From positions 62,001 through 126,000 of the forward strand of contig JADFSR010000007.1 in assembly GCA_022560615.1 (NCBI GenBank): a DNA stretch of 64,000 bases, written 5' to 3'. Positions 7,615-57,901 of the stretch are shown piece after piece. The notes under the pieces are model-generated. The model was given only the letters and a program-made list of their open reading frames with translations, searched no databases and was not told the origin of the DNA. Position 1 is the stretch's first letter, and every line of letters starts with the position of its first letter. Source of the stretch: Gemmatimonadota bacterium. GTDB taxonomy: Bacteria > Gemmatimonadota > Gemmatimonadetes > Longimicrobiales > Gaopeijiaceae. The translations under genes and the position numbers were made by a program.

Positions 7615-8328
7615 GTGGAGCTACACATCGGTACGAGCGGTTACAGCTATAGGGAGTGGAAGGGCAGCTTCTACCCCGAAGATCTGTCCAACAAAGACAT
7701 GCTCTCCTACTACGGGGAGCGCCTGGGCGCAGTCGAGATCAACGCCACGTTCTATCGCCTGCCGAAGACATCGGTGCTGGAGAGCTGGGCCGAGCAGGTG
7801 CCGGACGGCTTCAGGTTCTCGATCAAGGCGTCTCGCAAGATCACCCACTTCGCGCGCCTCAAAGCCGCGTCGCAGGAAGCGACTGAGTACTTGCTGTCGA
7901 CGCTCGGCTCTCTCGGGGATCGCATGGGCGTGTTGCTCTTCCAGCTGCCTCCGAACTTCAAGAAGGACATCGAGCGCTTCTCCGGATTCTTGGGGATGCT
8001 GCCGGAGGGCACCCCCGCCGCTTGGGAGTTTCGCCACGACAGCTGGTACGACGACGAAGTGTATGATCTGCTGCGCGACCGTGGGATGGCGTTGGTTTGC
8101 GCGGATACCGAAGAGTCGGGAGACGACGAGCCCATCGTGCACACAGCCCCCTGGGGATACCTGCGTCTGCGCAGGCCCACGTACGACGATGGCGACCTCG
8201 AGCGATGGGCTCGGAGTGTGGCCGCCCCGGAGTGGGAACGCGCCTTCATCTTCTTCAAGCATGAGGACGAGGGCGCCGGTCCCAAGATGGCAGGCCGGTT
8301 TGCAGAGATCGCACGCGAAGTCGGCTGA
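7615..8328 (+). CDS. DUF72 family protein
   Basis: About 237 residues from a GTG at 7615 with GGAGG five bases upstream. The frame is open further up to 7513, but homologous sequence starts at LHIGTSGYSYREWKGSFYP, the classic DUF72 N-terminus. Other family blocks are EINATFYRLP, FRFSIKASRKITH, LLFQLPPNFKKD and AWEFRHDSWYD. The fold is a TIM barrel of unsettled function. It is short for the family, lacking nothing obvious. No operon partner is evident; about 180 bp of sequence without a recognisable gene follow before the ABC operon. Confidence 0.92.
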   Translation: MELHIGTSGYSYREWKGSFYPEDLSNKDMLSYYGERLGAVEINATFYRLPKTSVLESWAEQVPDGFRFSIKASRKITHFARLKAASQEATEYLLSTLGSLGDRMGVLLFQLPPNFKKDIERFSGFLGMLPEGTPAAWEFRHDSWYDDEVYDLLRDRGMALVCADTEESGDDEPIVHTAPWGYLRLRRPTYDDGDLERWARSVAAPEWERAFIFFKHEDEGAGPKMAGRFAEIAREVG

Positions 8329-53005: not shown

Positions 53006-53667
53006 TCAGACGCGGTGCATTGGCTCCAGGCTTGGGTCGGCCGGTCAAGACGCTCACGGAGCTGCGCGAGTGGAAGGCTCATGAAAGCGCCGGCCGCTCA
53101 AGTTCACGCAACGTTCCTCGCCCAGGCCGTGCACCTCGAGTTGCCCCACAGACCCCCGCCCATCTCGCCCGCGCGCGGCCCCCCGCAGGGAGACTTCCTC
53201 CTCGACCAGACCCCGGCCTTCGATCCCGCCGAGGCCGAGCCCATCCCAGAATTCAGCTTCGACCAGTCGCTGCCCGACGAGTTCGAAGACTGAGGGTCTC
53301 CCCCCGCTGTCCTCCCGGACATGCTGAGCCCTTCGGCCACCTCGACCTGCCCGTCTCAACATCCCCTCGTCCCGATCCGCTTTCCGAGCGTCTCCCACTC
53401 CTCGCGCCGCGACGGCGATCGGCCGCGCCCCGCGCCCCTCTCTCCGTGTCCCATCCCGCAACACGACCTACCGTGACTCCCCACCCGAAAGCGCGGTAGA
53501 AATGCCTTCTATGGGCCTGGCGGCGACGCCGGAGCCCGGAGGCTGGCGGCCCTATTTTTAGGCAGCTGCTCCGCCAGCTAACGAATCGTGTAGCCGAGGC
53601 ATCCAGAGTTCGAGTGATCACGGCGAACACACGTCGTCGTCGCACAAAAACGCGAGGAGTCCGATTC
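53006..53667. other. Rearranged intergenic region with no clear gene
   Basis: 660 bp. A plus-strand frame 53015-53293 ends in AEAEPIPEFSFDQSLPDEFED, a proline/acid-rich tail that recalls some transposase ends but is not enough to call. The region holds copy A of the dispersed repeat (53333-53498) and an inverted repeat CTGGCGG/CCGCCAG (53543-53549, 53571-53577) around TATTTTTA, perhaps a terminator. I see no supported coding region. Confidence 0.55.
53333..53498. repeat. Dispersed ~165-bp repeat, copy A
   Basis: From 53333 this segment aligns with 58559-58727 at about 85% identity, with shared runs such as AACATCCCCTCGTCCC and TCTCTCCGTGTCCCATCCCG. The left border is sharp (CGGCCACCTCGACC). 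No terminal inverted repeats or target duplications are clear. It may be a MITE-like or REP-like element. Confidence 0.75.
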
Positions 53668-54699
53668 ATGTACATGCGTCCCGTCCGTTTCCTTCGAGCC
53701 GCGGTCCCGCTGGCGCTCCCGCTTGCGTTCTGGGCGTCACCCATCAGCGGGCAGGACAACGAGTTCGACATCGATATCGCGCGCGTGGGAGTCGGCTCGA
53801 GGTTCGAGCCGTTTCGTGTTACTGAAACCGAGCCGCTGCAGGACGCGATCTCCGCAAAGAAGCTGCAGGGTGACACCCGCGTACTCGTCATGGACCACCC
53901 AGCTGGGCTGCTCGCCTTTCTCACCGATCAGATGGTGTATCACCACGTGGCCCAGGGGGAGACCAACGGTGAGCCATGGATGGTGTCCTTCTGAGTGGTT
54001 TGTAACACAGGGGTCGGTCTGACTCCCACGGTTGACGGCAAGGTTCACCACTTCAGGACTCGCGGCATCTTCAACGGCCTCTCGATGCTCGCCGACGAGG
54101 AAACGGAGACCATTTGGAACCACATCACGGGCAGGGCGGTCTACGGCCCTCTCAAGGGGTCCGTGCTTCCCGTGTTCAATCTCCTGCACATGACGGCTAA
54201 GCAGGCACTGGACCGGTATCCCGGCTTGTCCGTCGCCATCTCGGACCGTCCAGTCCGGGGGCGAAGGGGCATGTTCGCGCCGATCGCCGACCGGATCCCC
54301 TTCCTGCGGGACGGCTTCAGGAGCACGATCGTGAAGGAAGACACTCGTCTTCCTACGATGGATATCGGACTCGGAATCTGGACCGATTCAGAGCAACGGT
54401 TCTATCCGATGGAGGTCGTCCAAGCGGGCGGTGGCGCCATCGTCGATGTCTTCGACGGCAAGCGTCTGGTCGTCTACGTGGAGCCCGGAACGTATGGTCT
54501 GGACGCCTTCTTCACGGAGGAGCAGACGGCCTCCACCGATGGCTCCCTCGTCACAGTCGGCCAGCATCTGGTTCTCGAGAGCGGAGTGCTCCGAGACTCG
54601 AGCGGCGAGCGAATCGAGATCGAGCGGCCGCTTCAGCTGTTCTCGCGGTGGTACGGATTCGCTCTGACGTTCCCCGAAACCACGATCTACGGACGCTAG
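53668..54699 (+). CDS. DUF3179 protein with in-frame TGA at the CxxC position: candidate selenoprotein
   Basis: One frame of 344 codons runs from ATG 53668 (GAGGAG eight bases upstream) to a stop at 54699. A signal peptide ends PISGQ. The only internal stop is TGA at 53992-53994 (codon 109), in VSF-U-VVCNTGVG. DUF3179 proteins have a CxxC at this place (like TYCPLC), so the TGA replaces the first Cys and Cys112 remains. After it, 235 codons continue without a stop and carry the family blocks VDGKVHHFRTRGIFNGLSM, DEETETIWNHITGRAVYGPL and RWYGFALTFP. A SECIS-like hairpin follows at 54010. The alternative is a nonsense mutation in a region that also holds decayed genes. I recall that some database members are named as selenoproteins, unverified. 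Confidence 0.8.
53992..54027 (+). promoter_or_regulatory. Candidate UGA-Sec codon and bSECIS hairpin
   Basis: After TGA (53992-53994) and 15 nt, GGGGUC (54010-54015) pairs with GACUCCC (54021-54027) around the loop GGUCU (54016-54020). The stem is 6 bp with U54024 bulged (or a G-U pair). The loop starts 21 nt after the stop. The E. coli fdhF SECIS loop also has GGUCU, about 18 nt after its UGA. Loop sequence, spacing and codon phase all agree with known bacterial SECIS elements, though GGU CUG also simply codes Gly-Leu. Confidence 0.65.
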
Positions 54700-55448: not shown

Positions 55449-56333
55449 CTACCCCACCCAGGCCGGATCGGCGGAGTCCGTGGCTGGCTGAGCCCCGCGG
55501 TATCCGTGGTTGGCCGCGGGTGAGCGGTCGTAGACCGTCTGGCCCTCTCCTTCATTGAGGCTCCAATAGCCCTGTAGGCCATCCGAGCTGACATCGACGC
55601 CCGTCTCGTGAACCGCCTGGATCTCCGCGGGTGAAAGGCTCCTCGACCACATGGCGGGGTCCTCGATCTCACCTGGGAAAAACCAGATCGGCGGCTCTTT
55701 GCCGCCGGGCGGCAGCGGTCCGATCTGGCCGTGCGTCGCCCCCAGGCTCAGGAACTGTCGGTTGTTGGACGATGGGGTACCGGTTCCTTCACAGCGGGCG
55801 CGCTCCGCGCCGTCCACGTAGAAGACCAGAGTGCCGCCCGCGTCTCGAGTGAGGGCCACATGGTGCCATGCGCCGTCAGCCACGAACATGTCGTCCGACT
55901 CGCAAACCCCCTGCCGTACACAGTCGTTGTTCGGGTAGCAGTAGTTGTCCTCGTTGGACGCCTCGAGCATGACCTCCAATGAACCCGTCCGTCCCACATA
56001 CATCTGCCAGCTCAAGTTGAAAGAGTTGTCGTCCTCACCTCTCGCGATGACCGCCGCTCGCGCGCTCGGAGTCGTCAGCCGTATCCGGGCGGCGATGGTA
56101 AACACCTCGGTCGGGAACGAGGCATTCCATGGAACGAGGACGCGGTCGTCCACGCCGTCGAACATCAAGTGGAAGTCCTGTCCGGATTCCGGTGGCGGAT
56201 CGCCGGGGTCGAAGTCTGAGGTCGTGTCATCATCGTCGATCACGGGTTCCATGGCGTCCTGCGCTCCGCAGGCGCCGACAGTCCCGAGCATCAATGCGAT
56301 CACCCATCTACGAATTCGGCGCGGCTCTGGCAT
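55449..56333 (-). CDS. LamG/concanavalin A-like lectin-domain lipoprotein
   Basis: 294 residues from ATG 56333, whose ATGA overlaps the multicopper oxidase stop. The signal ends GTVGAC (lipobox). The LamG_3/laminin-G-like domain is visible in LMFDGVDDRVLVPWNASF, FTIAARIRLTTPS, DGAWHHVALTRDAGGTLVFYVDG and the closing GEIEDPAMWSRSLSPAEIQAVHETG. It is a carbohydrate or surface-binding module displayed at the envelope, co-expressed with the copper oxidase. Four Cys in the middle (NYCYPNNDCVRQGVCESDD) may form disulphides. Confidence 0.87.
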   Translation of the reverse strand: MPEPRRIRRWVIALMLGTVGACGAQDAMEPVIDDDDTTSDFDPGDPPPESGQDFHLMFDGVDDRVLVPWNASFPTEVFTIAARIRLTTPSARAAVIARGEDDNSFNLSWQMYVGRTGSLEVMLEASNEDNYCYPNNDCVRQGVCESDDMFVADGAWHHVALTRDAGGTLVFYVDGAERARCEGTGTPSSNNRQFLSLGATHGQIGPLPPGGKEPPIWFFPGEIEDPAMWSRSLSPAEIQAVHETGVDVSSDGLQGYWSLNEGEGQTVYDRSPAANHGYRGAQPATDSADPAWVG

Positions 56334-57901
56334 CACTGGGCTCCAGTCTCGACGACGAATTGGCCCATCATGCCAACGTCTTCGTGCTCGAGGATGTGGC
56401 AGTGGAACATGTAGGGGCTCGTGGAATCCGCGTAGTCGCGGAAGCGCTTCACGATGCGAACCGTCTCGAACGGCCGGACCAGCACCACGTCCTTCCACCC
56501 GAGCTCGTTCTCCGGGGGGGCGAACCCGTCGCGGGTGAGTATCTGGAACGAGTCCCCATGTACGTGAAAGGGGTGCGCCTGGGTCGTCGGGTTGGTGATC
56601 TCCCAGACCTCCGTGTCACCCAGGCGGATGCTCTCGTTGATCACGTCGATGTCCATGCGCTGGCCGTTGATACCGAACGGATTCGCCGCGAGCTCGAACG
56701 GTCGGGCGCTCGCCAGGTTGATGGCCTCAGAATCGGAAATCGCCTCCACGGTCGTGAGTCCGGCTGGGATCGTGGTGACGGGGTTCGAGCGCGCAGCGCC
56801 CACCGTGATGTCGAGCAGATCGAAGTCTGCGGTATCCCACGTGTCCTGGAGCGGGAACGGGACCATCGATGTGCCCAGGCCGCTGTTGAAGCTTCGCAGC
56901 TTGAACGTGGTGCCCTGGTCGGAGCCCAGGTCGAGGAGGATCTCAGCCCGCTCGGCTGGGGCCAGGAGCAGTCGGGAAAGCGGCACCGGCGCGCGCAGAA
57001 ATCCGCCGTCCGACGCCACCTGGTGGAAGGTGCGGTTGTCGCTGAAACCCAGGTTGTAGATGCGGGCGTTGGAAGCGTTCAGGATGCGGAGGCGCACAAC
57101 CTGCGCCCCCACTTCTAGCACGGGCGCTTCCGCGCCGTTGACGAGAAAGTGCCCACCCTTCCGCAGCGCGGGATCCGATGCGGGGTTGAAGTCCGTGGGG
57201 AAGTGCAGCAGCTCTCCGTCGTCGTGGAATCGCCGGTCCTGCAGGATCAGCGGGATGTCGTCCACTCCGTAGGTTCGCGGTAGCGGCAGCGCGTCCGAGA
57301 TGTCGTCCTCGACGATGATCACGCCTGCCAGACCTTCGTACACCTGATAGCCGGTGCTCGTCGGGTCGAAGATCACCCCCTGCCCAGTGGGAGCGTGATG
57401 ATGCGGATGGTACCAGTACGTGGATGCGCGATTGAGAACCGGGAACGAGGCCGACCATACGGCGCCCGGGTCGATGCGCTGATGCGGTCCGCCGTCCATG
57501 ACCGCCGGCACGTGCATGCCGTGCCAATGCGTCGTCGTATTCACGCCGATGTTGTTGGTCACGTTGAGCGAGACGTCGGAGCCAGAGCGCAGGAACAACG
57601 TGGGACCGAGGTTGTCGCCGTTGTACCCCTTGGTGGGAGTCGTTTTGTCCCGGAGGAACTCCCGCGTCCCGGTCCGCATCTCGAGGTTGAACGTCGACGC
57701 GACCAGCATTTCCGGGATCGGGAGCGGGGTAGGGGCGACGCTCGGATCCGAATCGCTGGGACCCGAATCGGTCTCGTCCAGGGGCCCCACGCTGTCTTCA
57801 GAACAGGCCGAGAGACCTACCGTAGGCAGCGCTACTCCGGCGGCGGCTCCCGCGGCGAGTCGCAGCATCTTCCGCCTCGATATCGGCGATCGTATGAGCA
57901 T
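56333..57901 (-). CDS. Multicopper oxidase with Tat signal
   Basis: 522 residues. The N-terminus ISRRKMLRLAAGAAAG is a twin-arginine signal followed by SAC. All four copper motifs are present: THWHGMHVP, WYHPHHH, HPFHVHGDSFQ and MFHCHILEHEDVGMM, so type 1, 2 and 3 centres should be complete. It is of the CueO/bilirubin-oxidase-like three-domain type. It may oxidise cuprous ions, phenols or metals in the periplasm. The lipoprotein downstream overlaps by 4 bases, a rare pairing. Confidence 0.93.
   Translation of the reverse strand: MLIRSPISRRKMLRLAAGAAAGVALPTVGLSACSEDSVGPLDETDSGPSDSDPSVAPTPLPIPEMLVASTFNLEMRTGTREFLRDKTTPTKGYNGDNLGPTLFLRSGSDVSLNVTNNIGVNTTTHWHGMHVPAVMDGGPHQRIDPGAVWSASFPVLNRASTYWYHPHHHAPTGQGVIFDPTSTGYQVYEGLAGVIIVEDDISDALPLPRTYGVDDIPLILQDRRFHDDGELLHFPTDFNPASDPALRKGGHFLVNGAEAPVLEVGAQVVRLRILNASNARIYNLGFSDNRTFHQVASDGGFLRAPVPLSRLLLAPAERAEILLDLGSDQGTTFKLRSFNSGLGTSMVPFPLQDTWDTADFDLLDITVGAARSNPVTTIPAGLTTVEAISDSEAINLASARPFELAANPFGINGQRMDIDVINESIRLGDTEVWEITNPTTQAHPFHVHGDSFQILTRDGFAPPENELGWKDVVLVRPFETVRIVKRFRDYADSTSPYMFHCHILEHEDVGMMGQFVVETGAQ

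Follow-up and report, generated by a model that had tools for sequence, protein, structure and literature searches.

A DUF3179-family gene of a Gemmatimonadota bacterium is predicted to encode a selenoprotein with a UxxC site and an in-frame SECIS hairpin

The window analysed here is a 64,000-nucleotide stretch of contig JADFSR010000007.1 from a Gemmatimonadota bacterium, whose genome assembly is 4.5 Mb in size and 99% complete. It contains a DUF3179 gene (Table 1) with a single internal stop codon, a TGA at codon 109. As the initial annotation had stated, this TGA takes the place of the first Cys in the CxxC motif of DUF3179, and the second Cys is kept. When the TGA is read through, the protein matches the PF11376 (DUF3179) profile over residues 60–277, above the curated cut-off of 27 bits; the NCBIfam version searched holds no model matching the protein. 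Positions 109 (the TGA) and 112 are the only Cys positions, giving a UVVC site at residues 109–112. The protein is probably exported, judging from an N-terminal segment that resembles a signal peptide and is of low confidence (disordered) in the AlphaFold model. A promoter scan found nothing. The flanking genes in the window encode amine-oxidase-type flavoproteins, a laminin-G-like protein and a multicopper oxidase, and no conserved operon or gene neighbourhood pointing to a partner was found across the loci.

Table 1. Coordinates of the features of the predicted DUF3179 selenoprotein gene in the window.
Feature	Position	Strand	Description	Evidence
Predicted DUF3179 selenoprotein gene	53668–54699	+	343 codons, TGA read as Sec, stop TAG	PF11376 match of 85.1 bits; low dN/dS on both sides of the TGA
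Probable ribosome-binding site, GAGGAG	53654–53659	+	8 nt 5' of the ATG	Sequence
Signal-peptide-like N-terminal segment	53668–53754	+	Basic, then hydrophobic, ending ISGQ	Translation
N-terminal module of the DUF3179 tandem repeat	53821–54243	+	Contains the candidate active site	Model pLDDT 94.5; hhalign repeat
His92-His93	53941–53946	+	No variation among the 26 aligned Sec proteins	Alignment
Predicted Sec109 codon, TGA	53992–53994	+	First position of UxxC	Aligns with Cys of homologues
Cys112	54001–54003	+	Candidate resolving Cys of UxxC, invariant	Alignment
SECIS hairpin	54010–54026	+	Stem 54010–54015/54021–54026, loop GGUCU 54016–54020	234/234 pairs, compensatory changes
D-x-E-...-W-x-H (D143, E145, W150, H152)	54094–54123	+		Invariant in Sec and Cys subfamily members
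C-terminal module of the repeat	54340–54696	+	Without Cys/Sec site; contains invariant RWYG	Alignment, model, hhalign

Homologues have either Cys or a TGA in the column of codon 109. The fixed codon is TGA in 39 distinct genes and TGC or TGT in six near and ten distant relatives. Eleven DUF3179 genes are found in the source genome, nine of them stop-free and two with exactly one TGA each, namely the gene in the window and a paralogue (L025) with its TGA at the same codon. TGA-type DUF3179 genes occur in 19 of the 121 genomes of the same family. Across the phylum, the subfamily was found in 22 of 395 Gemmatimonadota genomes from five families, and each match spanning the site has exactly one TGA; the sole stop-free match in this sample is a fragment beginning behind the site. 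The named loci with the same TGA belong to Gemmatimonadota, Acidobacteriota, Gammaproteobacteria and the cultured Bacillota species Melghirimyces thermohalophilus. Relatives from Chloroflexota (Anaerolineae) and one from Bacteroidota have TGT or TGC at this codon and retain the second Cys. Because independent assemblies and genomes share the TGA, among them the paralogue and a copy with 91% identity, it is not a read error. Two Sec-type DUF3179 genes lie in tandem in one Gemmatimonadota genome (L071:5001-7127), with a similar pair in genome G159. The Melghirimyces thermohalophilus gene (L086:5001-5861) has a perfect SECIS stem and a shorter C-terminal module, and selA is present in its genome.

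The TGA might instead be a true stop, making the locus either a pseudogene or two genes, one with a 108-residue product and one starting from GTG at 53995. Translation table 11 does read TGA as a stop, and this GTG follows it directly. We nevertheless consider a true stop very improbable given a TGA shared by 39 distinct genes, the Cys homologues that read as one protein, the compensating hairpin described below and purifying selection both before and after the TGA. Measured against three relatives, dN/dS is 0.08–0.15 before the TGA and 0.06–0.26 after it; the downstream values exclude a decaying tail and indicate that purifying selection goes on.

The initial annotation had proposed a search for the selenocysteine machinery, and selA, selB, selC and selD are all found in the source genome: tRNA-Sec with anticodon TCA scored 66 bits, SelA 541 bits and SelD 386 bits, and SelB was over the cut-off in a profile search. 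SelD has a classical in-frame Sec TGA of its own in the motif HGAGUACK (L029:1501-1600), which is an internal positive control for Sec decoding. General reassignment of TGA to Trp, Gly or Cys would formally give the same readthrough, but it is even less credible than a true stop. TGA is an ordinary stop elsewhere in this genome, ending selA and four of seven Cys-type DUF3179 genes, none of which has an in-frame TGA; moreover, the aligned residue is Cys, and tRNA-Sec and SelB are present. The tRNA-Sec gene shares its strand with a Cys-type DUF3179 gene and is located about 1 kb downstream of it (L002, L009; G000:C15:6045-6959 and 8013-8105).

Among the 19 family genomes with a TGA-type DUF3179 gene, 16 have SelB over the cut-off, and the remaining three are 63–83% complete. 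Since SelB is frequent in the family overall (92 of 121 genomes), this co-occurrence is consistent with Sec decoding but weak by itself. selA is found in 13 of the 14 genomes behind the named TGA loci and in four of the six behind the Cys loci; none was found in one draft genome from Acidobacteriota that carries a TGA copy (L075). A block of family genera (G065–G087) mostly lacks SelB over the cut-off and has no TGA-type DUF3179 gene, which suggests loss of selenocysteine use in these genera.

The in-frame hairpin downstream of the TGA (GGGGUC-GGUCU-GACUCC, 17 nt) occupies nucleotides 16–32 after the codon. In the 39 distinct TGA genes, every stem pair forms (234 of 234). Resampling of synonymous codons with the proteins kept gave a mean of 194 and a maximum of 207 pairs; complete stems are present in all 39 genes, compared with nine expected and a maximum of 16 in the resampled sets. 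No complete stem remained when the 3' arm was slid, and the stem is absent from all 16 Cys genes. On 28 non-redundant rows we counted 26 double-sided changes, as opposed to 5.9 in shuffled alignments (reached in 0 of 500), and a covariation of 0.522 compared with 0.253 (0 of 500); four of the six pairs have changed on both sides. The stem pairs couple codons, so that residues are swapped: Gly-Val...Thr-Pro is encoded in 21 genes and Gly-Thr...Val-Pro in seven, and the rest include Ile...Val, Ile...Ile and Ala...Ala. Thus, the RNA constrains the protein. By this comparative evidence, the hairpin is a true SECIS. The initial annotation had also suggested RNA folding as a check; folding energies of single sequences are not significant (z of about -1 to +0.3), and the comparative evidence is decisive.

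The same annotation had likened the hairpin to the SECIS of Escherichia coli fdhF. The two share an in-frame position just 3' of the UGA, a GGUCU loop and the codon phase, and the 6-bp stem described earlier is confirmed. The claimed agreement in distance is not, as GGUCU begins 19 nt after the TGA in fdhF and 22 nt after it here, one codon further out, and the stem sequences are unrelated. In 38 of the 39 genes the first two loop nucleotides are AG or GG, and the loop is mostly AGnnU; GGUCU is found in nine, and within this alignment that exact loop is characteristic of a subgroup. The earlier argument that a TGA at this one codon followed by such a hairpin is unlikely by chance is borne out by its recurrence in 39 distinct genes. 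As the homologue column, the sel genes and the recurrent TGA all agree, the original proposal of a probable DUF3179 selenoprotein is supported, and the TGA at codon 109 is almost certainly decoded as Sec.

In a quick tree with long branches, rooted with classical DUF3179 proteins as the outgroup, two changes between Sec and Cys are needed. The Anaerolineae Cys clade splits first, and the Bacteroidota Cys protein is nested within the Sec clade. The simplest reading of this order, which we offer tentatively, is that Sec was gained once and reverted to Cys once.

The AlphaFold model of the protein (pLDDT 85.8) consists of two similar β-rich halves. The halves of classical DUF3179 proteins align with each other in hhalign (98.8% probability, E-value of 1.2e-16, 120 columns), which indicates that DUF3179 is a tandem duplication; the duplication was not seen when hhalign was run on the halves of the Sec alignment alone. 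The Cys/Sec site is present in the first module only. His92, 17 residues before Sec109, is expected from the strand register to face it across the β-hairpin formed by strands 94–99 and 102–109. A His at this distance before the Cys is kept in 17 of 17 classical DUF3179 proteins checked; His92 and His93 are replaced by Tyr and Asn in Chloroflexota Cys members. We saw no thioredoxin fold around the UxxC motif: the model is mostly β-structure with short helices, and there is no thioredoxin among the PDB matches listed. No solved homologue was found by sequence.

When the first module was modelled alone, a Foldseek search returned Rieske-fold proteins as all 13 best PDB matches, with probabilities of up to 0.98 and E-values of 0.05 or worse. 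The module may thus resemble the fold of the Rieske ferredoxins and the NirD small subunit, but the CxH...CxxH ligands of the [2Fe-2S] cluster are absent, Cys/Sec being found at positions 109 and 112 only, and there is no convincing sequence similarity. A Pfam search of the protein gave no Rieske (PF00355) match, and hhalign against about 30 Rieske loci gave a weak match for the second module (28% probability at best) and none for the first. The spacing of 17 residues between His and Cys is common to DUF3179 and most Rieske proteins. We also considered whether UxxC corresponds to the second Rieske motif; in the one profile alignment that gave any signal, CxxHGxxFD pairs with D-E-E-T-G-T-x-W-N in the second module and not with UxxC, and we therefore do not propose that Sec stands in for a ligand of the cluster. 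A Rieske-like origin of the DUF3179 modules is best treated as a lead. Going further, it is conceivable, though rather doubtful, that DUF3179 consists of tandem Rieske-fold modules that lost the Fe-S cluster and gained His, Sec and Cys in one of them, yielding a selenol redox enzyme on a non-thioredoxin scaffold. In a viral fold library, the fold is matched with an E-value of 1.4e-7 by A0A1V0SD44, an uncharacterised protein encoded by Indivirus ILV1, which suggests that there may be a DUF3179-like protein in giant viruses such as this one.

The most likely activity, which we favour with some reserve on the strength of the UxxC pattern, is a thiol/selenol redox reaction. In the proposed sequence of events, SelB and tRNA-Sec would decode the TGA at codon 109, directed by the hairpin starting 16 nt downstream. 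Sec109 and Cys112 would form the UxxC pair in the first of the two duplicated modules, with the invariant His92 beside Sec109 and perhaps assisting; Sec109 would attack the substrate, and Cys112 would resolve the intermediate via a selenenylsulphide.

The main rival to this redox role accepts the selenoprotein and has Sec109, Cys112 and His92 (perhaps also His152) bind a metal, the protein being a carrier or metalloenzyme and not a dithiol-type oxidoreductase. The His92-His93 pair, 17 residues from the site and invariant in the Sec proteins, would suit such a role, as would the possible resemblance of the first module to the metal-binding Rieske fold. A role in copper handling is imaginable because a multicopper oxidase is encoded nearby in three loci: the window (56333–57901), L063 and the gammaproteobacterial locus L080 (2.5 kb upstream). 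However, this neighbourhood is not general, the Rieske ligands are not conserved, His92 and His93 are substituted in the Chloroflexota members, and many classical members have CxxT at the site. On balance, we regard a metal site as unlikely.

DUF3179 domain-containing proteins (PF11376, UxxC/T) are a listed selenoprotein family, credited to a 2007 study of the deltaproteobacterial symbiont of Olavius algarvensis (PMC9312934; PMC13188914), and the gene in the window is a member of this family. Neither review mentions Gemmatimonadota or Acidobacteriota, and a literature search of incomplete coverage found no paper joining Melghirimyces and selenoproteins. What is new is the Sec-only clade, the covariation of the SECIS and the tandem duplication of DUF3179 with its His-Sec/Cys-Cys site in the first module. 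A gene caller that takes every TGA as a stop splits such genes in two at the candidate active site. The occurrence of a Sec-only subfamily throughout the phylum, in the genomes searched, suggests that selenium chemistry matters for function, which is testable in the cultured Melghirimyces thermohalophilus. The DUF3179 SECIS set also illustrates cleanly how a recoding signal imposes paired amino-acid changes on a protein.

Compared with the classical Cys-type DUF3179 proteins (CPLT, CPLC and CTLC types), to which the nine stop-free copies of the source genome belong, the predicted selenoprotein has the same two modules, the same column for Sec or Cys and the same His 17 residues before it, but the classical proteins are only about 21–28% identical to it, have Cys in place of Sec and lack the SECIS hairpin. 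With the published DUF3179 selenoproteins it shares PF11376, a Sec in the UxxC motif and Cys homologues at the same column. It differs from them, as the reviews describe them, in belonging to a UxxCN(T/S)G subfamily whose members in the searched Gemmatimonadota genomes are all of the Sec type and which has two Sec paralogues in several genomes.
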